Source: a virus. From it: a DNA stretch of 20,974 nucleotides. The stretch lies in IMG/VR virus record IMGVR_UViG_3300014720_000228, positions 1 to 20,974 of that record; one strand, given 5' to 3'. The position numbers and the translations under genes are program-made. Below are positions 822 to 20,974 of this stretch, one piece after another (positions within the stretch are counted from its first letter, which is position 1; each line of letters opens with the position of its first letter). The notes beneath the pieces are model-generated. The model was not told where the DNA came from. It saw only the letters and a program-made list of their open reading frames with translations, and searched no databases.

Positions 822-1889
822 ATGAGCGCAATTAGTTTCGGCACGCAAGTGTCTCTCAAGCAAGCGGCAAACCTCATCCTTGCCACTCCGATGAACCGCT
901 ATCTGTTGCAGGGTGAGCCAGGAATCGGCAAAAGTTCTCTGCTTAAAACCCTATCCGCAAACCTCCCCGATCACGAGGTCGCTTACATTGATGTGCCCAA
1001 CATGGACTTGGGTGACATCGCTATGCCTGTGATTGATCGGGAGACTAAGACTACTTCGTACTATCCGAATAGTCGCTTCAAGATTCACTTGGGCAAACCC
1101 GTCATAACAATGTTAGATGAGTTCACCAAAGGCGCAGAGCCAATCAAAAACATGCTTCACCCCTTGCTTGAGGTAGCAAACCCTCGGCTTGGTGACATCT
1201 CAGTTCGGGAGGAGTCCATCGTGTTTCTGACTGGCAACCTAGGTACAGACAATGTAGGTGACAACCTCAAGGCGCATAGCCGCAACCGCATCATCCCTCT
1301 GACTGTGCGAAAACCGGACGCAGACGAGTGGCTTGAGTGGGCAGTAAATAACAACATCGAACCCGTGGTGATGGCTTGGGTTCGCCAGTTCCCGCACGCC
1401 TTGGCTTCCTACACGGATGAGGCGCAGGGTGACAACCCCTATATCTACAACCCCAAGAAGGTTCAGACTGCCTTTGTTTCTCCCCGATCACTGGAGCGAG
1501 TATCTAACATTGTTAGGGTACGGGGGAAGTTGGATGCCGATAGCCTGATAGCCGCAATGACTGGAGCGTTCGGTGAGGCGGCAAGCCGTGATATGCAAGC
1601 CTATGTTGAGTATCAAGATCAGTTGCCCACTTGGGAGAGCATCATCAAGAACCCCAAGACTGCTGATGTACCTACGAGCGCAGGTGCTTGTGCTGTACTG
1701 GTGTTCGGCGCAATCGCTAAGATCGCCAAGGACACAATGACTCCGTTCATGCACTACCTTGAGCGGTTCGAACCTGAGTGGCAAGCGTGCTTCGCTATCA
1801 ATGTGGCTAAGTCTCCGACCAAGCAGAGCATTGCGTTCAGTTCTCAGGCATTCGCTGACTGGGTTACGAAAAACGAGGACTTGCTATGA
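822..1889 (+). CDS. MoxR-type AAA+ ATPase
   Basis: A 355-residue single-domain AAA+ ATPase of the MoxR/AAA_5 type. Walker A is GEPGIGKS (31-38), Walker B ends in D99-E100 (VITMLDEF), sensor 1 is N139 in FLTGN, and arginine-finger candidates R154/R156 follow. A C-terminal helical region completes the usual length of about 300-360 residues. Known MoxR proteins act as ATP-driven chaperones or remodelling machines paired with a VWA-domain protein that recruits the target, and a VWA protein is encoded just downstream. The start is supported by AAGGA at 811-815, six bases before the ATG. The stop overlaps the next start (ATGA). It is first in the P1 unit, and palindrome copy 3 lies inside at 1504-1516. 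The substrate is unknown. Confidence 0.9.
   Translation: MSAISFGTQVSLKQAANLILATPMNRYLLQGEPGIGKSSLLKTLSANLPDHEVAYIDVPNMDLGDIAMPVIDRETKTTSYYPNSRFKIHLGKPVITMLDEFTKGAEPIKNMLHPLLEVANPRLGDISVREESIVFLTGNLGTDNVGDNLKAHSRNRIIPLTVRKPDADEWLEWAVNNNIEPVVMAWVRQFPHALASYTDEAQGDNPYIYNPKKVQTAFVSPRSLERVSNIVRVRGKLDADSLIAAMTGAFGEAASRDMQAYVEYQDQLPTWESIIKNPKTADVPTSAGACAVLVFGAIAKIAKDTMTPFMHYLERFEPEWQACFAINVAKSPTKQSIAFSSQAFADWVTKNEDLL
1504..1516. repeat. Palindrome copy 3, CTAACATTGTTAG
   Basis: Perfect copy inside the MoxR-type gene, codons reading S-N-I-V-R. Centre base T. Confidence 0.9.
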
Positions 1890-2104
1890 GCCTTGAAGAA
1901 CAAGTTATCAAAAAAGCTCGAGAGTATTTAATCTCCAAGGGCTACTCAAGTAGGGACTTCTTTACAACACTTACCAAGGAAACTAACAATGTTAGACAAA
2001 GCAGAACGAAGATTGAAGAAGGTGAAGATCACTCTGATGCGAAACCCCAAGTTCGCTCTGTGGTCGGGCATCCTGATGCTTGGCAAGACGGAGGTGGTCA
2101 ATAA
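1886..2104 (+). CDS. Small overlapping ORF, hypothetical
   Basis: A 72-residue ORF whose ATG overlaps the MoxR stop (ATGA) with GAGG at 1875-1878, so translational coupling is plausible. The first 34 codons (MSLEEQVIKKAREYLISKGY...) look like a genuine charged helical protein. From 1989 on, the ORF runs in another frame under the VWA gene and its composition turns poor (glycine- and aspartate-rich), as expected of a shadow frame. It may be a real small protein with a long overlap, a leader whose translation helps start the VWA gene, or the relic of an N-terminal extension of that gene now out of frame. Function unknown. Confidence 0.45.
   Translation: MSLEEQVIKKAREYLISKGYSSRDFFTTLTKETNNVRQSRTKIEEGEDHSDAKPQVRSVVGHPDAWQDGGGQ
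1983..1995. promoter_or_regulatory. Palindrome copy 4, spanning the VWA start codon
   Basis: Perfect CTAACAATGTTAG. The ATG at 1989-1991 is the start codon of the VWA gene, and the SD AAGGA at 1976-1980 is two bases upstream of the palindrome. A protein bound here on DNA, or a short 5-bp hairpin in RNA, would cover the translation start. Confidence 0.75.
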
Positions 2105-3179
2105 CATTCCGACAGCCTGTACTAATGGGCGTGACGAGAAGTATGGTCGGGAGTTCATCGAAGGGCTGGATGACAAGGAGTTGGGGTTCGTTGTGCTTCA
2201 CGAGAATCTCCACAAGGCGTTCCGTCACTTGTTCATTTGGCGCAAGTTGCACGAGGAAAATGCTCAGTTGGCTAATGCCGCTTGCGACTATGTGATTAAC
2301 CTGATGATTGTTAAGTGTGATCCGCAGGAGCAGGTTGTCGCTATGCCTCGCAAGAACGGCAAGGTCTACGGGCTACTCGACCAGCGGTTTGACAAGATGA
2401 ATGCCAAGCAGGTGTTCGACATCCTCAAGCAGGAGCAACAGGATGGGACTGGTGGCGGTGGTGATGAGGGCTTCGATGACCACGACTGGGATGGTGCGCA
2501 GGAGTTGAGCCAAGAGCAGGTCAAAGAGTTGGAGAAAGAGGTAGACCAAGCCTTGCGTCAAGGACAGATCGCTCACCAAAAAGTCAACGGCACTGGTGCT
2601 GGTGATATGGGGCGTGAGTTGGGTGACTTGCTTGAGCCTCAGATCGACTGGCGTGAGGTGTTGCGTGAGTTCGTCAAGTCCATCTGTAGTGCCAAGGATG
2701 CAAGTTCATGGCGCAGGGTGAACCGCAGATACTTACATGGTGATGTGTATATGCCTACGCTAATAGGTGAGAAGGTTGGGCGCATCGCTATCGGTATCGA
2801 CACTTCAGGGTCTATCGGTGGGCGTGAGTTAGATCGCTTTCTCTCCGAGGTCAAGTCTATTGCTGATGATGTTCACCCTCAGTTCGTTGATTTGATCTAC
2901 TGGGACAGTGAGGTGGCGGCACACGAAGAGTATGACGAGAGCAGCGTGGCTAACATTGTTAGTTCTACTAAGCCAAGGGGAGGCGGTGGCACTGACCCGA
3001 CAGCCATGATGCGTTACTTGAAAGAGAAGGGCATCACGCCGGAGTGCATTGTGATGCTTACGGATGGCTACATATCGGAATGGGGAGATGAATGGAATGC
3101 TCCAATACTTTGGACGATTTGCAATGAAGCATCGGATGTCTTTGCCCCATGCGGTAAGACTGTTCACATTAAGGACTAA
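1989..3179 (+). CDS. Zinc-peptidase-like/VWA-domain protein, MoxR partner
   Basis: A 396-residue two-part protein. The N-terminal part contains HENLH (71-75), an HExxH-type motif as in the DUF2201 metallopeptidase-like domain of VWA proteins. An acidic glycine-rich linker (about 152-170) and a helical segment follow. The C-terminal VWA domain has the full metal-ion-dependent adhesion site: DTSGS (271-275), T335 in GGGGTD, and D359 in LTDG. This architecture matches VWA proteins that work with MoxR ATPases, and the two genes lie side by side. Whether HENLH is catalytically active cannot be told from sequence. The start was chosen for AAGGA eight bases upstream; that start codon sits inside palindrome copy 4. 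Copy 5 lies within at 2950-2962. Confidence 0.88.
   Translation: MLDKAERRLKKVKITLMRNPKFALWSGILMLGKTEVVNNIPTACTNGRDEKYGREFIEGLDDKELGFVVLHENLHKAFRHLFIWRKLHEENAQLANAACDYVINLMIVKCDPQEQVVAMPRKNGKVYGLLDQRFDKMNAKQVFDILKQEQQDGTGGGGDEGFDDHDWDGAQELSQEQVKELEKEVDQALRQGQIAHQKVNGTGAGDMGRELGDLLEPQIDWREVLREFVKSICSAKDASSWRRVNRRYLHGDVYMPTLIGEKVGRIAIGIDTSGSIGGRELDRFLSEVKSIADDVHPQFVDLIYWDSEVAAHEEYDESSVANIVSSTKPRGGGGTDPTAMMRYLKEKGITPECIVMLTDGYISEWGDEWNAPILWTICNEASDVFAPCGKTVHIKD
2950..2962. repeat. Palindrome copy 5, CTAACATTGTTAG
   Basis: Perfect copy inside the VWA gene, codons reading A-N-I-V-S, between the DTSGS and GGTD parts of the metal site. Confidence 0.9.
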
Positions 3180-3622: not shown

Positions 3623-3645
3623 CCAAGCAACCAAGGAGCGAACCC

Positions 3646-4503
3646 ATGAGCATTACATCTAGTGCAGTAACAGTAGAAATGAATATCTCTGTGTGGACTG
3701 CCAACAAGTTGGACAGGACTGCAACCGAGAAGGTGGTTAACGATAACAATGCTACGCAAGACTCAGGCAAGTTCCACAAGAACCTGATGGCTGGCACTAC
3801 TTTGCGAAAAGAGATCGCAGACTATGCGGCTGGCACTCGGCTGTGGCATAACACTCGCACTCTGCCGTGGGCTGACAAGGGAGCAAGACTGCTTGCTACT
3901 AGTCTGTTCATGGATTACAAGACAGAGGCTAACATCCGTCGTGACACATTCAATCGCATGGTGGATAACTTTCTTACTCAGTATCCTGCCCTTGTTCAGA
4001 CTGCCCACAATTATCTCGGCAACCTGTTCAACTCCGCAGACTACCCAAGCGTGGATGAGGTGCAAAGCAAGTTTGGATTCCGATTGGTGTTCAGTCCCGT
4101 CCCTGAGTCTGGTGACTTCCGCTTGCAGGTGGCAGAGCAAGACTTACAAGACCTACGCCAACAGTACGAAGATTCTTTTTCTACCCGGCTAGCCGATGCT
4201 ATGCGTGAGCCTTGGGACAGACTTCACAAGTTGCTGACAGGCATAAGTGAAAAGTTGACGGACATTGATGGGGAAGATGAGACTAAGAAGCGGTATCACG
4301 ATACCCTCATCACTAACGCACAAAGCCTTTGCTCCCTGCTGACTCATCTGAATGTAACGAAAGACCCTCAGTTGGAGCAAGCAAGGCGTGACCTAGAACT
4401 AACAATGTTAGGTGCTGACATTGATGCAATCAAAGAAAGCCCCGAGGTTCGCAAGAGCATGAAGAATAAGGTCGATGCAATCCTCAAACAATATCAATGG
4501 TAA
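3646..4503 (+). CDS. Hypothetical protein, possibly DUF3150-like
   Basis: 285 residues, mostly helical, preceded by a strong SD AAGGAGCGA (3633-3641). The N-terminal part has a short beta-like stretch (VEMNISVWTANKLD), then a conserved-looking block with TRLWHNTRTLPWADKGARLL around residues 64-83. An NTxPW-D-G-RLL pattern of this kind recalls the DUF3150 proteins often encoded beside MoxR and VWA genes in phages and plasmids; I offer that only as a possibility. A charged helical region with coiled-coil character makes up the rest. It sits in the P1 unit after the MoxR and VWA genes and could be a third component or a client. Palindrome copy 8 lies near its 3' end. Confidence 0.7.
   Translation: MSITSSAVTVEMNISVWTANKLDRTATEKVVNDNNATQDSGKFHKNLMAGTTLRKEIADYAAGTRLWHNTRTLPWADKGARLLATSLFMDYKTEANIRRDTFNRMVDNFLTQYPALVQTAHNYLGNLFNSADYPSVDEVQSKFGFRLVFSPVPESGDFRLQVAEQDLQDLRQQYEDSFSTRLADAMREPWDRLHKLLTGISEKLTDIDGEDETKKRYHDTLITNAQSLCSLLTHLNVTKDPQLEQARRDLELTMLGADIDAIKESPEVRKSMKNKVDAILKQYQW
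4399..4411. repeat. Palindrome copy 8, CTAACAATGTTAG
   Basis: Perfect copy, read as codons CTA ACA ATG TTA G (L-T-M-L). It shares the second codon register with copy 6. Confidence 0.9.
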
Positions 4504-4514
4504 GGAGCGATTAA

Positions 4515-12219: not shown

Positions 12220-13762
12220 CAAAGTTTTACTGGTCCGAACAAGACGACCACACCTCATTACCGAACATATAAAGAAAAGCGCAGTAGTAGGACAGGAGCA
12301 AGACGTATACGAAGTGGCAGTGAACTGGGGCTTGAAAGAGGCTCAGATGCTAGCCAATCTCCGTATTAAGAACGTCCCTTCCACCATCAAGCGTGACTAC
12401 GCATGGACGGGGAGGCTCACGCCCTTTGCACACCAAAAGGAAACTGCGTCCTTCCTGACCCTGCACTCAAAGGCGTTTTGCTTTAACGAGCAGGGCACTG
12501 GCAAAACTGCATCCGTCATTTGGGCCGTTGACTATCTTATGAAGATTGGCGAAGTCAGGCGTGTGCTTGTGCTTTGTCCGCTATCCATAATGAAATCTGC
12601 ATGGCAGCAGGACTTGTTTAAGTTCGCCATGCACCGCTCATGCTCTGTAGCCCACGGAGATTCCAAGACTAGGGCGAAGGTCATTAACGCTGGAGCAGAG
12701 TTCGTCATCATCAACTTTGACGGGCTGGCTGTAGTCAAACAGGAAATCCTTAAGGGTGGCTTTGACCTCGTAGTAGTCGATGAAGCAAATGCTTATAAGA
12801 ATCCACAAACTAATAGATGGAAAGTATTGAAAGAGGTCGTCGCTCAGAGCAAATGGCTTTGGATGATGACCGGAACCCCAGCGGCGCAGTCTCCAATAGA
12901 TGCCTACGGGTTGGCAAAACTAGTCAACCCTGACAACACACCCAAGTACTACGGGCAGTTCAGAGATCAGGTGATGTACAAAGCGACCCAGTTTCGGTGG
13001 GTTCCTAAACCTAACGCACAAGATGTAGTCCACAAAGTACTGCAACCAGCAATCCGGTTTGAAAAAGATCAGTGTCTTGATCTGCCCGAGGTTACGTTCG
13101 TAGAACGGGAAGCCCCCCTGACTCCACAGCAAGTCAAGTACTACAAAATGCTCAGAAAGCAAATGACGCTAACGGCGGGAGGGGAGTCGGTGACTGCGGT
13201 CAATGCGGCAACCAACATCAATAAGTTGCTACAAATCTCAGGTGGTGCGGTCTACTCGGACACTCGAGAGGTCATAGAGTTTGATGTGTCTAACAGACTA
13301 CAAGTAATCCTTGAAGTCATTGAAGAAGCTAGTCACAAAGTGTTGGTCTTTGTGCCATTCACTCACACAATTGAACTACTACATGCAGTGCTTGAGAAGA
13401 ACAATATATCGTGTGGCGTCATCAATGGGCAGGTGTCGTTTAATAAACGAAGTGAGCTGATTAAGCAATTTCAGGAAAACCCTGACCCACATGTCCTCAT
13501 CATTCAACCTCAAGCGGCCTCACATGGCCTTACACTGACAGCGGCTGACACAATAATTTGGTATGCACCAGTCACTAGCGTTGAGACTTACCTCCAAGCA
13601 AACGCACGCATCAACAGGCCGGGGCAAAAACACGCTATGACCATCGTGCATATCAAAGGCAGTGAAGTCGAAGATAAGCTGTACCACATGCTTCAGAACA
13701 ACATCAACAACCACGAGAAAATTGTGGACTTGTATCGTCAAGAGATCTCTCAAGACATTTGA
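12203..13762 (+). CDS. SNF2-like superfamily 2 helicase
   Basis: 519 residues from GTG 12203 (VRIVDDKVLLVRTRRPHLI), which fits the usual start of phage homologues. A TTG at 12146 would add 19 residues read through the HNH gene and is less likely. Motif I is GTGKT (98-102), motif II DEAN (193-196), motif III MTGTP (222-226) and motif VI ARINRPGQ with arginines at about 469 and 472. FTHQ-like FAHQKETASFL (about 75-84) is the Q motif region. Family members translocate on double-stranded DNA, and phage versions serve replication or recombination. The final base of its TGA lies within the P3 -35 hexamer. The motif II ending in N rather than H or Q is a minor variant. Confidence 0.9.
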   Translation: MRIVDDKVLLVRTRRPHLITEHIKKSAVVGQEQDVYEVAVNWGLKEAQMLANLRIKNVPSTIKRDYAWTGRLTPFAHQKETASFLTLHSKAFCFNEQGTGKTASVIWAVDYLMKIGEVRRVLVLCPLSIMKSAWQQDLFKFAMHRSCSVAHGDSKTRAKVINAGAEFVIINFDGLAVVKQEILKGGFDLVVVDEANAYKNPQTNRWKVLKEVVAQSKWLWMMTGTPAAQSPIDAYGLAKLVNPDNTPKYYGQFRDQVMYKATQFRWVPKPNAQDVVHKVLQPAIRFEKDQCLDLPEVTFVEREAPLTPQQVKYYKMLRKQMTLTAGGESVTAVNAATNINKLLQISGGAVYSDTREVIEFDVSNRLQVILEVIEEASHKVLVFVPFTHTIELLHAVLEKNNISCGVINGQVSFNKRSELIKQFQENPDPHVLIIQPQAASHGLTLTAADTIIWYAPVTSVETYLQANARINRPGQKHAMTIVHIKGSEVEDKLYHMLQNNINNHEKIVDLYRQEISQDI

Positions 13763-13772
13763 CAAAGTCAAA
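13758..13772. promoter_or_regulatory. Perfect inverted repeat over the P3 -35 (candidate operator)
   Basis: TTTGAC-AAA-GTCAAA is a perfect 6-bp inverted repeat with a 3-bp centre, overlapping the -35 hexamer and the helicase stop codon. P2 has the same element with one mismatch. Confidence 0.6.
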
Positions 13773-13786
13773 AGTTGTGCTATACT
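13759..13786 (+). promoter_or_regulatory. Promoter P3, extended -10
   Basis: A -35 TTGACA (13759-13764), a 16-bp spacer and a -10 TATACT (13781-13786) preceded by TGC. The expected start is near 13793, giving a leader of about 22 nt with the SD TAGGAGCGATTC directly before ATG 13815. Confidence 0.8.
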
Positions 13787-13814
13787 GAAGTCTCATAATA
13801 AGTAGGAGCGATTC

Positions 13815-14222
13815 ATGACCGAAGAACAGTTGTCCCTTGACGATCTTGTTGGCATCTATCTCAAGATTCGTAACGCCATCGAAGCAAAGGAAGAACAGCA
13901 CAAGGCCGAGATCCAAGAACTGAAAGACCAGTTTGAGGTGGTTGGCAACAAACTGCTCGACATTTGCACCGAGCAAGGCGTCGATAGCATCAGAACCCCA
14001 TCTGGTACAGTCTCACGCCGAGTATCATCCCGCTACTGGACGAGTGACTGGGACTCAATGTACCAGTTCATCATGGAGAACGAAGCACCCTTCTTGATGG
14101 AGCAACGAATCCATAACTCAAACATGCGGGAGTTTTTGGAGAACAACCCGGACAAGTTTCCGGCTGGCCTTCAGAACGAACGTAAGTACGCTGTACAAGT
14201 ACGCAAACCAACCGCCAAATAA
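13815..14222 (+). CDS. Conserved phage replication-region protein
   Basis: 135 residues, preceded by AGGAGCGATTC that abuts the ATG. Residues about 1-60 are a coiled coil (LVGIYLKIRNAIEAKEEQHKAEIQELKDQ). IRTPSGTVSRRVSSRYWTSDWDSMYQFI and HNSNMREFLENNP, near the C-terminus, form a conserved block that I recognise from many phages, next to ssDNA-binding-type proteins. The coiled coil plus C-terminal domain recalls Gp157-like phage proteins. The biochemical role is unknown; the position as first gene of the P3 unit before the ssDNA-binding candidate suggests a replication accessory. Confidence 0.7.
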   Translation: MTEEQLSLDDLVGIYLKIRNAIEAKEEQHKAEIQELKDQFEVVGNKLLDICTEQGVDSIRTPSGTVSRRVSSRYWTSDWDSMYQFIMENEAPFLMEQRIHNSNMREFLENNPDKFPAGLQNERKYAVQVRKPTAK

Positions 14223-14231
14223 GGAGCGACT

Positions 14232-15144: not shown

Positions 15145-15378
15145 ATGAGTTACGGATACAGCGCGAGACTGATTAAAGCAAATCAAGACGCTGATAAAAG
15201 TTTGCTCGGTGTGCGCCTAGGTAAGATGTGCATACAGGGAGAAGTCCCTGTTGTTGTAGTTGCACAAGATCTAGGTGTTACCCGACAAACAGTCTACAAC
15301 TGGTTTAGTGGTACAAGCTCCCCTGTGGGGGCCACTGCTATAAAAGTTGAAGCGTTTATCAAAAAACATTTTCTTTAA
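15145..15378 (+). CDS. Cro/XRE-like helix-turn-helix protein
   Basis: 77 residues. Residues about 35-56 (VPVVVVAQDLGVTRQTVYNW, then FSG) are a classical helix-turn-helix with VTRQTVYNWF as recognition helix. The following PVGATAIKVEAFIKKHF forms a last helix. The ATG is four bases after the previous stop and lacks a strong SD, so reinitiation is likely. It could be a transcriptional regulator or a DNA-binding replication factor placed just before the primase. No matching operator can be named. Confidence 0.7.
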   Translation: MSYGYSARLIKANQDADKSLLGVRLGKMCIQGEVPVVVVAQDLGVTRQTVYNWFSGTSSPVGATAIKVEAFIKKHFL

Positions 15379-15434: not shown

Positions 15435-18275
15435 ATGACCAATCAATTAGACCTTTTAAGCACTGTGCAACCATCGGAGGGGTGGTTTGCGGTGTTGGGC
15501 ATAAAAGGCGAGAACGATGTAAAGCAGGAATTAGTAGCCACAAGGAAAGAAGTTGACCAGCTAGCAGAGAAGTTTGTAGCAGAAGATCGGAACGTTTATT
15601 TCGGTGTAGCCAAGTTTGCCACCAACAAGAACAGACAAAAACCTAACGTCCTAGGACTACGGGCCTTTTGGCTAGACATTGATTGCGGGGAACTCAAGGC
15701 AGAGATCAACCCAAAGACGGGACGGCCTGAAGGCTACGTTGACCAAACCATTGGACTGCAAGCACTAAAGCAGTTCTGCAATCTAATCGGATTACCCAAG
15801 CCAATTATCGTCAACTCAGGCAGAGGCATACATGTCTACTGGCCCTTGACACGTGATGTATCACGCGAGGAGTGGGAACCCGTTGCAAGCAGACTGCGTG
15901 AACTATGTGTACTACACAATTTCCACATCGACGGAAAAGTCTTTGAGGTTGCCCGGATTCTTAGGATACCCGGAACGTTTAACTTTAAAGATGATCCACC
16001 TACGCCAGTAGAAATTATTAGCGGTGCCCCACCCGTAGACTACGAAGCATTCCGTGACTTGCTCGGGGTGAAAGCCCCAACTGAAGCACCACCCAAGCGA
16101 GAGTTGTCCGAACTAGCGAAGTCCATGATGGAGAACACAACCTCCAGCTTTAAGAAGATCATGATTCGCAGTGCCAAGGGCAACGGATGCCAGCAACTGT
16201 TGGATGCCTTTGAGAATCAAGACACTCTGTCTGAACCTCGCTGGTTTGATGCTCTGTCAATCGCTAAGTTTTGTAATGACCGTGACATTGCCATCCACAA
16301 AATGTCCGAGGGGCATCCCGATTACGACTACGCAGACACGGAAAGCAAAGTCCAACACATTGTTGGGCCACATACTTGCGCTGAGTTTGAAAAAAGTAAT
16401 CCGGGTGGCTGTGATGGATGCCCGTTCTACAACAAGATTAAGTCCCCCATAGTGCTTGGCAAAGAGGTACAGGAAGCCACTGAGGAAGACAACACTGTTG
16501 TGGTACAGAACGAAAAAGATAAAGAAGAGAAAGTTCACAGCATCCCCAAGTACCCGTTCCCTTTCTTTCGTGGCAAGGGGGGTGGTGTATTTAAGTCTAT
16601 GGGGGATGAGGAGGAACCCGTTCGGGTGTACGAACACGATCTGTATGTCGTGAAACGTATGAGGGATCCAGCGGCAGGTGACGTAGTTGTTATGAAACTG
16701 CACCTACCAAGAGACGGAATAAAAGAGTTTGTCGTGCCTAACACGCATGTAACAGACCAAGCCGAACTGCGTCGGACGCTATCTAGTCACGGCGTGGTGT
16801 GTAGCAAAAAACCATTTGGGCTTGTGATGGAATACGTCATTGCCTCTATCAGGGAAATGCAATTTACAAGGAAGGCTGAGCAAATGAGACAACAGTTTGG
16901 ATGGGCAGACAAGGACAACAAGTTTATTTTGGGGGACCGGGAGATCACTCCTGATGGCGTTTTTCATAGTCCCCCTTCAACCATCACGACCAATATCGCC
17001 CAACACATTCAACCAGCGGGTGATTTTGACAAGTGGAAAGAAGTCTTCAACCTGTATAGCGCTCCGGGGCTAGAACCCCATGCGTTTGCAACGCTGACTG
17101 CCTTTGGCTCCCCATTGTTCAAGTTCCTAGGGCAAAACGGCGCCATCATAAACGTGATACATCCTGATTCAGGTACGGGTAAAACGACCATCCTGCACAT
17201 GTGCAACAGCGTCTACGGGGATCCTGCTCGGCTATGTGCAATGTGGGACGACACAATAAACGCCAAGATTCTGCGGCTAGGGGTGATGAACAACCTGCCT
17301 TTCACTGTGGACGAAATGACCAACACAGCCCCAGCAGACTTCTCAACCTTGGCCTACTCCATGTCTCAAGGGCGGGGTAAAGACAGGGTCAAAGCATCGG
17401 CAAACGAGCTTCGTGCAAACCTAACATCGTGGCAGTCCATATCCCTGTGCTCCTCTAACGCCTCGTTCTACGAAAAGCTGTCTTCCCTGAAAAACTCTCC
17501 TGACGGGGAGATGATGCGCTTGATTGAGTACAAGATCGACTACTCTGGGGCCATCGACGTTGCCTACGCAAAGCAGATGTTTGACCACCAACTTAAGAAC
17601 AACTTTGGGCACGCGGGCGACATCTACGCTAAATGGTTAGTAGAGAACCTAGAAGAAGCCAAGAACACAGTGTTAGGAATCCAGCTAAAGATTGACAAAG
17701 AACTGCGGTTGAGCCAGCGGGAGCGGTTTTGGTCTGCGGTCGTAGCGGCTAACATTACGGGTGGTTTGATTGCTAAGAACTGTGGCTTGCTTGACTGGGA
17801 TATGAAGGCAATCTACAAGTGGGCTACCCAGATGATCTTGGGCCTACGGGCAGATGTGAAACCCCCAGCAAGTGACGTCATGTCCGTGATTGGTGACTAC
17901 ATTAACCGGCACATGCAGAACATCTTAGTTGTTAACGACAATGTGGACAGGCGCACCTCAATGCCCTCTCTGCCTACACTTGAGCCAAAAGGCGAGTTGC
18001 TGGTTCGGTATGAGCCTGACACTAAGAAGATGTTCCTTGCCGCCAAGCCGTTCAAGAATGACTGCGTGAAGTATCAAATCAACTACAAAGAGACGCTTAG
18101 CCAGTTGGAGAAAAAGGGCATTTTTCTTGGTACCACAAATAAACGGCTATCCAAGGGCATGAAGGTTGTGTCGCCCGGAGTCCACTGCTTGATCTTTAAT
18201 TGCGCCAGCAGTGAGTTTATTAGTATGGATGACCTAGTCGCACCTGAGAGTAGTCATGCAGGTAGAGAGGGTTAG
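15435..18275 (+). CDS. Primase-helicase fusion (AEP-like primase plus DUF927-type helicase)
   Basis: 946 residues. The N-terminal third is an archaeo-eukaryotic-type primase core: W79-LDID with D81/D83, SGRGIH with H133, and R177-IPGTFNF. A zinc-binding segment follows (H313, C315, C326, C329 in HTCAEF...CDGC). The C-terminal half is a DUF927/SF3-like helicase domain with Walker A SGTGKTT (579-585), Walker B VDEM with D626/E627, and a later S-rich motif (SLCSSN). The protein should prime and unwind at the phage replication fork with the polymerase encoded upstream. The start at ATG 15435 is not preceded by a recognisable SD, in contrast with its neighbours. The preceding 56-bp gap shows only a weak hairpin. 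Confidence 0.88.
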   Translation: MTNQLDLLSTVQPSEGWFAVLGIKGENDVKQELVATRKEVDQLAEKFVAEDRNVYFGVAKFATNKNRQKPNVLGLRAFWLDIDCGELKAEINPKTGRPEGYVDQTIGLQALKQFCNLIGLPKPIIVNSGRGIHVYWPLTRDVSREEWEPVASRLRELCVLHNFHIDGKVFEVARILRIPGTFNFKDDPPTPVEIISGAPPVDYEAFRDLLGVKAPTEAPPKRELSELAKSMMENTTSSFKKIMIRSAKGNGCQQLLDAFENQDTLSEPRWFDALSIAKFCNDRDIAIHKMSEGHPDYDYADTESKVQHIVGPHTCAEFEKSNPGGCDGCPFYNKIKSPIVLGKEVQEATEEDNTVVVQNEKDKEEKVHSIPKYPFPFFRGKGGGVFKSMGDEEEPVRVYEHDLYVVKRMRDPAAGDVVVMKLHLPRDGIKEFVVPNTHVTDQAELRRTLSSHGVVCSKKPFGLVMEYVIASIREMQFTRKAEQMRQQFGWADKDNKFILGDREITPDGVFHSPPSTITTNIAQHIQPAGDFDKWKEVFNLYSAPGLEPHAFATLTAFGSPLFKFLGQNGAIINVIHPDSGTGKTTILHMCNSVYGDPARLCAMWDDTINAKILRLGVMNNLPFTVDEMTNTAPADFSTLAYSMSQGRGKDRVKASANELRANLTSWQSISLCSSNASFYEKLSSLKNSPDGEMMRLIEYKIDYSGAIDVAYAKQMFDHQLKNNFGHAGDIYAKWLVENLEEAKNTVLGIQLKIDKELRLSQRERFWSAVVAANITGGLIAKNCGLLDWDMKAIYKWATQMILGLRADVKPPASDVMSVIGDYINRHMQNILVVNDNVDRRTSMPSLPTLEPKGELLVRYEPDTKKMFLAAKPFKNDCVKYQINYKETLSQLEKKGIFLGTTNKRLSKGMKVVSPGVHCLIFNCASSEFISMDDLVAPESSHAGREG

Positions 18276-18450
18276 TTACCAAATCAACTGGAAAAAGTTT
18301 AGGAAGGGGTACTCGTTTTTCATCCCCTGCCTAGACCCAGCTTCTGCCAAAAAAGAAGTTGCCGCCACTACCGACCGCTTGCGTTACAAAATCCTAACAA
18401 AGGTAGTAATTGAAGACGGAATAAAAGGTTTAAGAATTTGGCGACTTTGA
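18256..18450 (+). CDS. Small conserved phage protein
   Basis: 64 residues, overlapping the primase-helicase end by 20 bp in another frame. It contains INWKKFRKGYSFFIPCLDP, a pattern (W-x-x-F/L-x-x-G-x-SFF-x-PCLD) found in small phage proteins, and ends VVIEDGIKGLRIWRL. The family is thought of as a small single-domain protein of unknown role. Its stop is directly followed by a candidate promoter, a hairpin and the terminator. Confidence 0.7.
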   Translation: MQVERVSYQINWKKFRKGYSFFIPCLDPASAKKEVAATTDRLRYKILTKVVIEDGIKGLRIWRL

Positions 18451-18456
18451 TATACT
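18429..18456 (+). promoter_or_regulatory. Weak candidate promoter P4
   Basis: An extended -10, TGA-TATACT (18448-18456), lies with 16-bp spacing from a poor -35 TTTAAG (18429-18434). The -10 format matches P2 and P3. The predicted start is at about 18463, exactly the first base of the hairpin that follows. Confidence 0.4.
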
Positions 18457-18462
18457 GGCGTC

Positions 18463-18531
18463 GGAAGAATCGCTCCTTCCTGTTTCCTTGGTGGTCTTTG
18501 ACACTCCCGGCCTAAAAACCGGGGGTTTTTT
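18463..18531 (+). ncRNA. Candidate small RNA with an anti-Shine-Dalgarno loop
   Basis: The stretch between the last + gene and the terminator can give an RNA of about 69 nt, either from P4 or by processing of the P3 mRNA. It would begin with hairpin GGAAG (18463-18467)/CTTCC (18476-18480), continue with a pyrimidine-rich single-stranded stretch, and end in the terminator hairpin and U run, the usual layout of bacterial small RNAs. The hairpin loop and its 3' arm contain AATCGCTCCTT (18468-18478). This is an exact complement of the SD region at 4502-4512, and 18467-18477 is an exact complement of 13804-13814. Expression is unproven. Confidence 0.4.
18504..18531 (+). terminator. Intrinsic terminator of the P3 unit
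   Basis: CTCCCGG (18504-18510) pairs with CCGGGGG (18519-18525) with one G-T wobble around an 8-nt loop, followed by six T (18526-18531). It overlaps the stop codon of the convergent - strand gene. On the - strand the hairpin is not followed by a U run, so it should act only on + transcripts. Confidence 0.85.
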
Positions 18532-20974
18532 ATTTCTGAGGCACCTTGGACTTTTCACCTAATTCAAAAATCGTATCTGCCATGCGTGGGTCAACAGCAA
18601 GACCTTCTTCGGCAAGTGCCCTGCGTTTTGCCCTACCTGACAACGAACCCAACAATGTGTCTTGAGTTATAGGAAGCACGTATTGATTTTTATAGTTGTA
18701 CCTATCCATCTCAAGCAAAGCCTTTTCAATAGCCTCATCGTTCTTATCTGTAGGATCTTCGTCATATTTTATGTACGCCTTGTCAATGTCTCGTAGTACC
18801 TTAGTCCGATCTTTTTCAATTTGCATGACCATCTTACGGGCCATAAAGTTAAACTTTTGAATTTCAGCAACTTCGGTGCTTTGGAAACCAAGAGTCTGAC
18901 CTATCAACTTACCGGTTGTGTACCACTCTGCATTACGAATCTCATCGCCTCGTGAAGTTTTAAGACCCTCATCGCCTAACCTGACCGCAGTAAATGCACC
19001 ACGGAAGAATGCAGGTACTAATTTAGATGCACCTCTATTAAACTCACCGTTGTTAAAGTCATCAAGCGACGAGAACATTTGTTCACCCATGGAACCAAAC
19101 GGTCCTGTGAGGCTAAACACAAACTGTTGGAACCCTTCTTTGGAACTTGCGGAAGGCATATCTTCTCTGAACCACATACCGTCAAGACTGGTTGAGGCAC
19201 TAATGTTTAAATCGGTCAGTGCAGATATTGGACCCATTTTGACAGAACGCTGGAGCATCAATGCTTGTTCTTGGGTCAACCCCATGGCGGTAGCGAGGTC
19301 GCTTCCCGGCCCAAAGTAAGTTGGGATAAACCACTCACGGAACCAAATATCAAGATTGCGCTTACCTAACGGGTTGCCATCATCATTCTCGTCATAGAAC
19401 TCATCAGCTTCTTCATCCTCCATATCCGGACGAAGTGCTTCGCGGATGCCCTCAGCTAAACCTAGGATTGCACTGTATCCCGGCATACCGGTAACACCAG
19501 CAAACAAACCTGTCATGCCAAGAGTGCCAAAGAATTTAATGGCAGCGTCGCGCTTACCTTCTTTATTTAGGTAAGGCAGCATTCCGTAGAAGTTACGCAC
19601 CAGATAAGAAGTCATCTGGAGAGGGAAGGTCATGAACTGTGTACCAAGCTTGGTAACAAAGTTAGCCTTCATGAGACGAGGCTTGTTGTACTGCGAATAG
19701 TTAAACAACGAGTCGTAGACCATCTTTGTCGCTACGTTAATGGCTTTATTCGTGGCCTCGTTGGGATTCAATCCCTGTTTTATACCCCGTGCGTACTCCA
19801 ACTCAAACGAGGACATGTACATAATTTCACGGGTAATACGCTCAGAGTGGTAAAATGCACCACTAATAAAGTTCATCGTTGCTCGTGTACTACGACTTAG
19901 AAAGCCTTTGTACTCTGCGGTTGGCACTTTCGCCCGTGACGTCATATCTGACGCATAGGTAGACATAAACAAGTCTTTGTCTTGGGCTGCTTGCCATGCA
20001 CGCTTTAGCTGCGCACGATATGTAAGATCTGGATGCTTATTGACGTAGCGGGAGTCGTTTATCGACGGCTCCCCCCAGATAGTAATTACGTTACCCGCAG
20101 CGTCTCGTTTTGTAGTGCCTAGCTTGTTAAACAGGTTGGAATAACGAGCAGTAACTTTAAGAGTTTCGGCAGTGCCGTACTCAGCCATTAGAGTGGGTAG
20201 GCCCACAATCGGCAACTGAGTCATTTGAACAAGAGCAGACTTAGGCGAGGTCAGCATGTAGTAAAACACCGCCTGATTACCAATGTTTGCCAACTGGTCT
20301 AGGTTCATCTCACCCGGAACGGCAGGAGTCATCTCTGCTTGAGCGCGTATAGCAATCTCATCTACAAAGGTGCTCAGTTTAAGGGCGTCCGGATTGCCCG
20401 CCAATTCAGCATAAGCCGAACCAATTCCTAGTCTGATCTGGTCGGAGTAAGCTAGTCTAGCCAATTGATTAGCCGCTGTGTGTTGGGAGACAATAAAGTT
20501 GCGAAGCACATCCCCACTGAAACCGGTCTTACCTTGTCTGTGAGTAAACTTACGACGGATGTCTCGGTCAGGTAGCGTCATCAAATACATTTGATAGACC
20601 TGATCTTTAATAGCATCTACGTCAGTAATGCCAGCTTTGCCGGTAACCGGATTGACAACGCTTCCATCCTCAAGTGCTTTGAAGATGTCTTTAAGCATTT
20701 GGCTTGACTCAACTACTTCACTACGAATCTGATTTATGTCGTCTCCGACTTCAAAACTCTGGTCAGCAAGTACGTCCTCATATTTTTTACCTGCTTCTTC
20801 AGCGCGTTTGCGTGCGTAATTATTACGAGCAGTGGCTGATTCAAAGAGGTAGAACTCGCCCGACTTGCCTTTACCGATTCGAAGCCAGAAGTTGCCATAG
20901 CGCATCAAGGGGAAGTACAGCCCTAGCTGCTGAGCTTCTTGGAAACTTTGAGTAATCTGAGCGATCAACTTACC
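18530..20974 (-). CDS. C-terminal part of a giant PLxRFG-type phage protein
   Basis: At least 814 residues. The frame stays open to the right edge (G-K-L before the first displayed TTG), so the start lies outside. LYFPLMRYGNFWLRIGK near the edge matches the hallmark of 'PLxRFG domain-containing' phage proteins, which are very long (often thousands of residues) and thought to be polyvalent virion or ejected proteins. Further in are long helical stretches, a hydrophobic glycine-rich segment (FFGTLGMTGLFAGVTGMPGY, about residues 475-500 of the visible part) and an acidic loop (MEDEEADEFYDENDDG). It is the only - strand gene, convergent with the replication genes, as expected for a late structural region. 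Stop TAA at 18530-18532. Confidence 0.85.
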   Translation of the reverse strand, partial: GKLIAQITQSFQEAQQLGLYFPLMRYGNFWLRIGKGKSGEFYLFESATARNNYARKRAEEAGKKYEDVLADQSFEVGDDINQIRSEVVESSQMLKDIFKALEDGSVVNPVTGKAGITDVDAIKDQVYQMYLMTLPDRDIRRKFTHRQGKTGFSGDVLRNFIVSQHTAANQLARLAYSDQIRLGIGSAYAELAGNPDALKLSTFVDEIAIRAQAEMTPAVPGEMNLDQLANIGNQAVFYYMLTSPKSALVQMTQLPIVGLPTLMAEYGTAETLKVTARYSNLFNKLGTTKRDAAGNVITIWGEPSINDSRYVNKHPDLTYRAQLKRAWQAAQDKDLFMSTYASDMTSRAKVPTAEYKGFLSRSTRATMNFISGAFYHSERITREIMYMSSFELEYARGIKQGLNPNEATNKAINVATKMVYDSLFNYSQYNKPRLMKANFVTKLGTQFMTFPLQMTSYLVRNFYGMLPYLNKEGKRDAAIKFFGTLGMTGLFAGVTGMPGYSAILGLAEGIREALRPDMEDEEADEFYDENDDGNPLGKRNLDIWFREWFIPTYFGPGSDLATAMGLTQEQALMLQRSVKMGPISALTDLNISASTSLDGMWFREDMPSASSKEGFQQFVFSLTGPFGSMGEQMFSSLDDFNNGEFNRGASKLVPAFFRGAFTAVRLGDEGLKTSRGDEIRNAEWYTTGKLIGQTLGFQSTEVAEIQKFNFMARKMVMQIEKDRTKVLRDIDKAYIKYDEDPTDKNDEAIEKALLEMDRYNYKNQYVLPITQDTLLGSLSGRAKRRALAEEGLAVDPRMADTIFELGEKSKVPQK

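Follow-up and report, generated by a model that had tools for sequence, protein, structure and literature searches.

The window, itself an IMG/VR virus record of 20,974 bases, very probably encodes a trans-acting small RNA (sRNA) at 18463–18531 that carries an anti-Shine-Dalgarno (anti-SD) sequence and would repress a regulon of the phage's own replication-strand genes. Comparison with relatives establishes, at the level of sequence, a conserved promoter-hairpin-terminator layout, compensatory changes in the hairpin stem, matched changes of the loop and of SD boxes in many genes, and a restriction of these boxes to the replication strand. From these patterns, we infer that the RNA is made, that its pairing represses translation, and that it serves to lower early-gene expression in the course of infection; putative in the same sense are promoter use, repression, timing, any requirement for Hfq, and which strand counts as early or late. 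The switch from early to late genes in phages is usually ascribed to transcription factors, new sigma factors or RNA polymerases, and protein repressors of translation. Here, sequence evidence from well over a hundred phages of a large, uncultured aquatic family points to a multi-gene RNA regulator.

Layout of the predicted RNA gene and its complements in the window

The sRNA site is the meeting point of the plus-strand replication genes and a long minus-strand gene that ends at 18530; the latter (18530–20968) is the end of a long late-gene protein with similarity to DarB-like antirestriction families. The first-pass annotation had placed an extended −10, a hairpin at the expected +1, a linker, and a terminator in the gap after the replication operon. 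This order of elements stands (Table 1), and the predicted RNA runs from ~18463 to ~18531 (~69 nt) as hairpin, linker, and terminator. The extent of the gap had to be corrected: the TGA within the extended −10 doubles as the last codon of a 64-aa ORF, which leaves 18451–18529 as the true intergenic gap. No match for this ORF was found in PHROGs or Pfam. No good −35 region was found for the −10 element, the best being TTAAGA at a spacing of 15.

Table 1. Features of the predicted sRNA locus and of its candidate target sites in the window
Feature	Position	Strand	Basis or remark
Extended −10 promoter element TGATATACT	18448..18456	+	sequence; hexamer kept in relatives
5' hairpin GGAAG(AATCGCTC)CTTCC, 5-bp stem	18463..18480	+	begins at predicted +1; stem covaries in relatives
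Anti-SD seed GAATCGCTCCTT, mostly in hairpin loop	18467..18478	+	perfect SD complements; coevolves with SD flanks
Candidate second seed in linker, GTTTCCTTGGTGG	18482..18494	+	complement before gene 1989; weak
Intrinsic terminator (hairpin 18503–18526 and T-run)	18503..18532	+	position conserved, sequence variable in relatives
Conserved 64-aa ORF in primase-sRNA interval, overlapping primase end	18256..18450	+	~130 relatives
Strong sigma70-type promoter, TTGACA-16-TATACT with TG, of operon from gene 13815 to sRNA	13759..13786	+	
Main target gene 13815, 135 aa	13815..14222	+	weak Mu Gam-like similarity
SD box AGGAGCGATTC of gene 13815, 11-nt complement	13804..13814	+	boxed in 14/18 genomes
SD box AAGGAGCGATT of gene 4515, 11-nt complement	4502..4512	+	boxed in 2/16 genomes
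SD box AAGGAGCGA of gene 3646, 9-nt complement	3633..3641	+	boxed in 10/18 genomes
SD box AAGGAGCGA of gene 14232, 9-nt complement	14221..14229	+	not conserved in relatives

The two 11-nt matches (4502–4512 and 13804–13814) and the two 9-nt matches (3633 and 14221) described in the first-pass annotation are all present. The sequence AATCGCTCCTT at 18468–18478 has AAGGAGCGATT as its perfect 11-nt complement, GAATCGCTCCT (18467–18477) is complementary to AGGAGCGATTC over 11 nt, and TCGCTCCTT is complementary to the 9-nt AAGGAGCGA, which occurs at 4502 as well as at 3633 and 14221. When the anti-SD core CTCCTTCC was held and five loop bases were randomised, at least 4 of the 30 gene starts had a complement of at least 9 nt in 0.4% of trials. 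Taken by itself, the window thus makes a suggestive, moderate case for complementarity; the decisive evidence is comparative. The candidate second seed in the linker faces 1971–1983 before gene 1989 as a 13-nt complement with 10 Watson-Crick pairs; in one relative (G001), the linker matches the start of the ATPase gene instead of gene 1989.

Conservation of the locus and covariation of the stem

Three scans of viral contigs using primases of this phage family yielded ~170 distinct loci, and the stretch after the 64-aa ORF was fully readable in 126 of them, giving 97 distinct sequences. These relatives have the −10, nearly always 1–3 CUCC (anti-SD) seeds, and a terminator at the same site, with predicted RNA lengths of 46–104 nt (median 73.5). 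The −10 hexamer lies at a fixed short distance after the stop codon and reads TANNNT in 89% of 90 distinct relatives (most commonly TATACT, TAAACT, TAGACT, and TACACT), and its score exceeds every background window in RNA bodies in 57% of relatives. Because 90 distinct sequences keep the promoter at this distance, a primary transcript is the most likely form of the RNA; read-through of the operon into a 3'-UTR-derived RNA, an origin that had been considered earlier, is most likely not its only source. At the sequence level, the locus thus shows one mark of the general class of trans-acting base-pairing sRNAs: a short non-coding segment bounded by a promoter of its own and an intrinsic terminator.

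Of 2.9 million viral contigs, 63 contain an exact copy of the 17-mer GGAAGTTAGCTCCTTCC, and in 59 of them it lies at this sRNA site, counting one cut locus (L297) assigned from its sequence context. A primase search of bacterial genomes returned no more than two MAG contigs, one from a beta proteobacterium and one from a Bacillota bin (47–51% primase identity). Both have the same layout, hairpin included, but two such contigs are too few to name a host. A search of known-phage DNA gave no match to the window, and in Pseudomonas phage Rollin, which its primase (31%) makes the nearest cultured relative, the genes converge at the corresponding junction without a gap.

The hairpin stem changes on both arms together. 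Variants include GGAAG/CTTCC, AGAAG/CTTCT, GAGAG/CTCTC, GCAAG/CTTGC, GTAAG/CTTAC, and GAAAG/CTTTC, as well as longer stems such as GACGGCG/CGTCGTC and GCGGACG/CGTCCGT; the GCUCC loop core stays constant inside these strongly differing stems. Since MAFFT misplaced the 5' arms when whole hairpins of varying loop length were aligned, we counted on arms joined without the variable loop bases. In these counts, 98% and 100% of cells were paired, 8 and 11 cells were changed on both sides, and the covariation scores were 0.62 (0.24 in shuffles) and 0.97 (0.38 in shuffles); the arms were hand-chosen as hairpins, which favours pairing, and the compensatory changes are nonetheless visible in the raw sequences. 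All shuffles scored lower, and slid partners scored near zero. The 7-mers around CUCC have a mean unpaired probability of 0.71, versus 0.48 for other stretches. Compensatory stem changes around a constant loop core are borne out in the relatives.

Coevolution of the loop with SD flanks across the putative regulon

The bases beside CUCC vary by phage (UCG, UUG, UAG, and others), and the SD bases after GGAG follow them (CGA, CAA, and CTA). This was seen in a discovery set of whole contigs from eight sRNA-bearing phages with three loop types. Gene starts came from a simple in-house caller, which is biased towards SDs but not towards any given flank. After GGAG on the replication strand, phages with loop UCG have CGA 11 times, CAA 4 times, and CTA never; those with UUG have 0, 18, and 0, and those with UAG have 0, 1, and 20, respectively. 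The trinucleotide agrees with the phage's own seed in 49 of 54 cases (permutation P ~1e-5), and 8, 16, and 18 own matches (loops UCG, UUG, and UAG) remain without gene 13815. The phage's own box is found at 49 of 173 replication-strand SDs versus 1 of 100 late-strand SDs.

For the gene 13815 homologue, own matches exceed permuted pairs at all clustering levels, with 8/16 clusters at 65% primase identity (2.9 expected, P = 2e-4) and 32/56 at 95% (8.8 expected). For validation, predictions were fixed beforehand for 11 further phage contigs. The replication strand gave 46 own matches versus 33.1 expected by permutation (P = 0.0027), with power limited because most of the 11 phages share the UAG seed, and the late strand showed no excess (P = 0.46). 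Measured genome by genome against a background of genomes without the seed, own-seed enrichment reached P < 0.05 in 17 of 21 genomes, closely related ones among them not being mutually independent, and no significant enrichment was seen in the other four (G008, G010, G026, and G028). In 14 of the 21, no trinucleotide was commoner than the own seed. Such within-genome counts depend little on phage kinship because the genes are mostly non-homologous. In a tree test of single seeds at gene 13815, the independent pairs were all in the expected direction or neutral, at numbers too few for significance; for CTA, 3.6 changed the same way and 0 the opposite way, of 7. The covariation of hairpin loop and SD flanks that the first-pass annotation had proposed as a check thus holds across phages and several gene families, and it supports what is expected of a trans-acting base-pairing sRNA, an accessible seed complementary to unlinked gene starts. 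The RNA and its targets share a strand and are 4 to 15 kb apart, unlike cis-antisense phage RNAs of the sar and OOP type, which are encoded opposite their target.

Of the four target genes named at the outset, 13815 and 3646 recur in relatives and look like the core targets in the window, whereas 4515 and 14232 do not recur and look phage-specific. The regulon is also wider than these four sites, with homologues of 822, 1989, 5989, and 8601 targeted in other phages: over 18 genomes, boxes occur most often at the homologues of gene 13815 (14/18), AAA ATPase 822 (10/18), and gene 3646 (10/18), and less often at those of 5989 (7/16), 8601 (5/12), and 1989 (5/17). Orthologues switch box with loop type, as seen at gene 13815 (GCGATT, GCAACT, and GCTAAT), gene 3646 (GCGAACC, GCAAACA, and GCTAATC), the 822-family ATPase (GCAACG and GCTAAC), and gene 1989 (GCAACT and GCTAGC). 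The longest duplex, 18 nt and perfect, is at the start of the 822-family ATPase in G007; others span 13 nt (G029) and 12 nt (G024, loop UGUAGCUCC facing GGAGCUACA). The RNA of G010 carries two further CUCUCC seeds, and several of the switching target genes (13815, 3646, 822, and 1989 families) have GGAGAG in place of the other boxes, although G010 falls short of significance when trinucleotides are strictly counted. A promoter-like sequence lies upstream of the 13815 homologue in 52 of 86 relatives. In the window, 822–3179 holds the AAA ATPase followed by a gene that PHROGs calls an HNH endonuclease but that reads VWA-like, a MoxR-VWA-like pair on the replication strand.

The agreement has exceptions. 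At gene 13815, the first three flanking bases mismatch in 37 of 82 comparable distinct relatives; a few of these mismatches are G-U wobbles (CTG, TTA), and the real exceptions are L040, L126, L012, and the L050–L059 and L133–L160 groups. In these two groups, promoter and terminator are kept, the CUCC context is degraded or different, and matching SD boxes are absent (e.g., SD GGAGTGTTAG with seed UUGCC); their RNA may serve something else. Phages without a CUCC seed (L015–L020, G013, and G009) have no box at gene 13815. The first-pass annotation had held that relatives keeping the terminator and the SD motif while losing the complement would speak against the RNA; this did not occur in L015–L020, where the SD box of gene 13815 is lost too. 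In a clade without the CUCC hairpin (L019, L039, and G013), the short leader that remains, TAGTGCCCCTTG, is complementary over 12 nt (G-U pairs included) to the SD of a 457-aa late-strand gene (minus strand, L103 region); this may be an RNA put to a new use, or chance. G030 departs from the replication-strand rule, with a 17-nt sRNA complement (with G-U pairs) on the minus strand at position 41952, at the start of a 292-aa late-strand gene.

Proposed action, alternative readings, and known systems

We propose that, where the replication operon ends, the sRNA would be transcribed from a sigma70-type (extended −10) promoter of its own and that its 5' hairpin would present CUCCU together with a phage-specific neighbour sequence. 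In mRNAs of the phage's replication-strand genes, this seed would pair with the SD plus the adjoining downstream bases and block ribosome binding; the SD flanks would act as a common address (here AGGAGCGA[TT]), coevolving with the loop. SD occlusion with repression of translation would be the most likely action, like that of NfeR1 of Sinorhizobium meliloti, which silences by covering the ribosome-binding site (PMC10746234). Negative feedback on the sRNA's own operon through gene 13815 is likely because this gene heads the strong-promoter operon that ends with the sRNA. The position after the replication genes, the replication-strand targets, and the lack of late-strand boxes suggest a shut-off of early genes. 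In a broader form that we favour with some reserve, one sRNA gene carries as many as three anti-SD seeds, which reach different groups of early genes through the bases flanking their SDs, seeds and addresses are rewritten together as phages diverge, and each RNA switches off its own early genes and spares late ones.

Four other readings have to be weighed. It is improbable that the main task of the RNA is a general block of host mRNAs through the anti-SD core, with the pairing to phage genes secondary. CUCCUU can pair with any SD, and host anti-SD sRNAs act on many mRNAs (PMC10746234); however, the core would suffice for a general blocker, whereas here the neighbour bases match the flanks of the phage's SDs at one gene after another and switch together with them, and the late genes of the phage escape. 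That the motif is a DNA or RNA site of a phage repressor protein, of which the sRNA locus merely holds an inverse copy, appears very unlikely. The inverse copy sits in or beside a covarying RNA hairpin flanked by promoter and terminator, the boxes overlap SDs at normal spacing and many lie inside operons, and some box changes are G-U wobbles (CTG, TTA), although a DNA-binding protein would read the motif either way and the operon does encode a small HTH protein (15145–15378).

We give just as little credence to the boxed early mRNAs being sponges that keep the sRNA off other targets, with regulation running from mRNA to sRNA: sponge RNAs are known, phage-encoded ones included (AsxR and AgvB; PMC12559287), but many genes have their box across a properly spaced SD, a place where pairing has to compete with ribosomes. 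Finally, the hairpin directly follows the operon and the AAGGAG part of the match is generic, as expected if the element only terminated the replication mRNA and protected its 3' end with a hairpin, and if the complement were the usual likeness of C/U-rich loops to SDs. A conserved promoter, covarying stems, and loop-SD coevolution beyond the generic core make this reading extremely improbable.

A repressing sRNA with a coevolving code beside the SD would let one RNA address many phage genes simultaneously and would explain why unrelated early genes of one phage share SD flanks. It would offer a clean example, from nature, of seeds and targets coevolving across a multi-gene regulon and make sRNA targets predictable in uncultured phages; more speculatively, differing codes could make it harder for co-infecting phages to share genes.

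Against Rfam, neither the window nor five relatives gave a match at the family threshold. Weak matches to RF02278 and RF02837 were rejected, as they do not rest on the seed hairpin; RF02278 scored 19.8 bits (cut-off 50), and its match falls on the linker and terminator. This toxic small RNA of Betaproteobacteria is alike in length (~60–70 nt), in having two hairpins of which the second is the terminator, and in its C/U-rich unpaired region, but it belongs to host genes, and the window RNA misses its gathering threshold. The toxicity of RF02278 has been linked to an anti-SD sequence.

Base-pairing sRNAs, anti-SD loops, and phage RNAs that block single phage genes (sar, c4, and OOP) are already known. 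In the literature covered, which lies outside subscription journals and preprints, we found no description of a phage sRNA with a coevolving SD-box regulon. Among phage RNAs that lower phage gene expression, sar (P22), c4 (P1/P7), and OOP and aQ (lambda) are described with one target each and are mostly antisense or linked RNAs, sar and c4 blocking translation by pairing around the start (PMC12197685); the window RNA, in contrast, would be one unlinked RNA whose short seed serves a regulon of several genes. VpdS (VP882) and PreS (lambda) are likewise phage-encoded, trans-acting sRNAs and are Hfq-dependent, but their phages are temperate, the target of PreS is a host gene, and VpdS acts on host sRNAs and on host and phage mRNAs; neither a shared SD box nor a coevolving anti-SD seed is given for them in that review (PMC12197685). 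The alpha-r14 or 'cuckoo' RNAs of alphaproteobacteria (NfeR1; CcsR of Rhodobacter) also expose an anti-SD motif in hairpins whose stems vary (PMC10746234), and the motif of the phage RNA is similarly unpaired in hairpins with variable stems. The cuckoo RNAs, however, are host-encoded, act on host metabolic targets, and repeat an invariant CCUCCUCCC in each of three hairpins, whereas the RNA described here is phage-encoded and has a shorter core, CUCC(U), in 1–3 copies, with variable neighbour bases that coevolve with the phage's own SD boxes.
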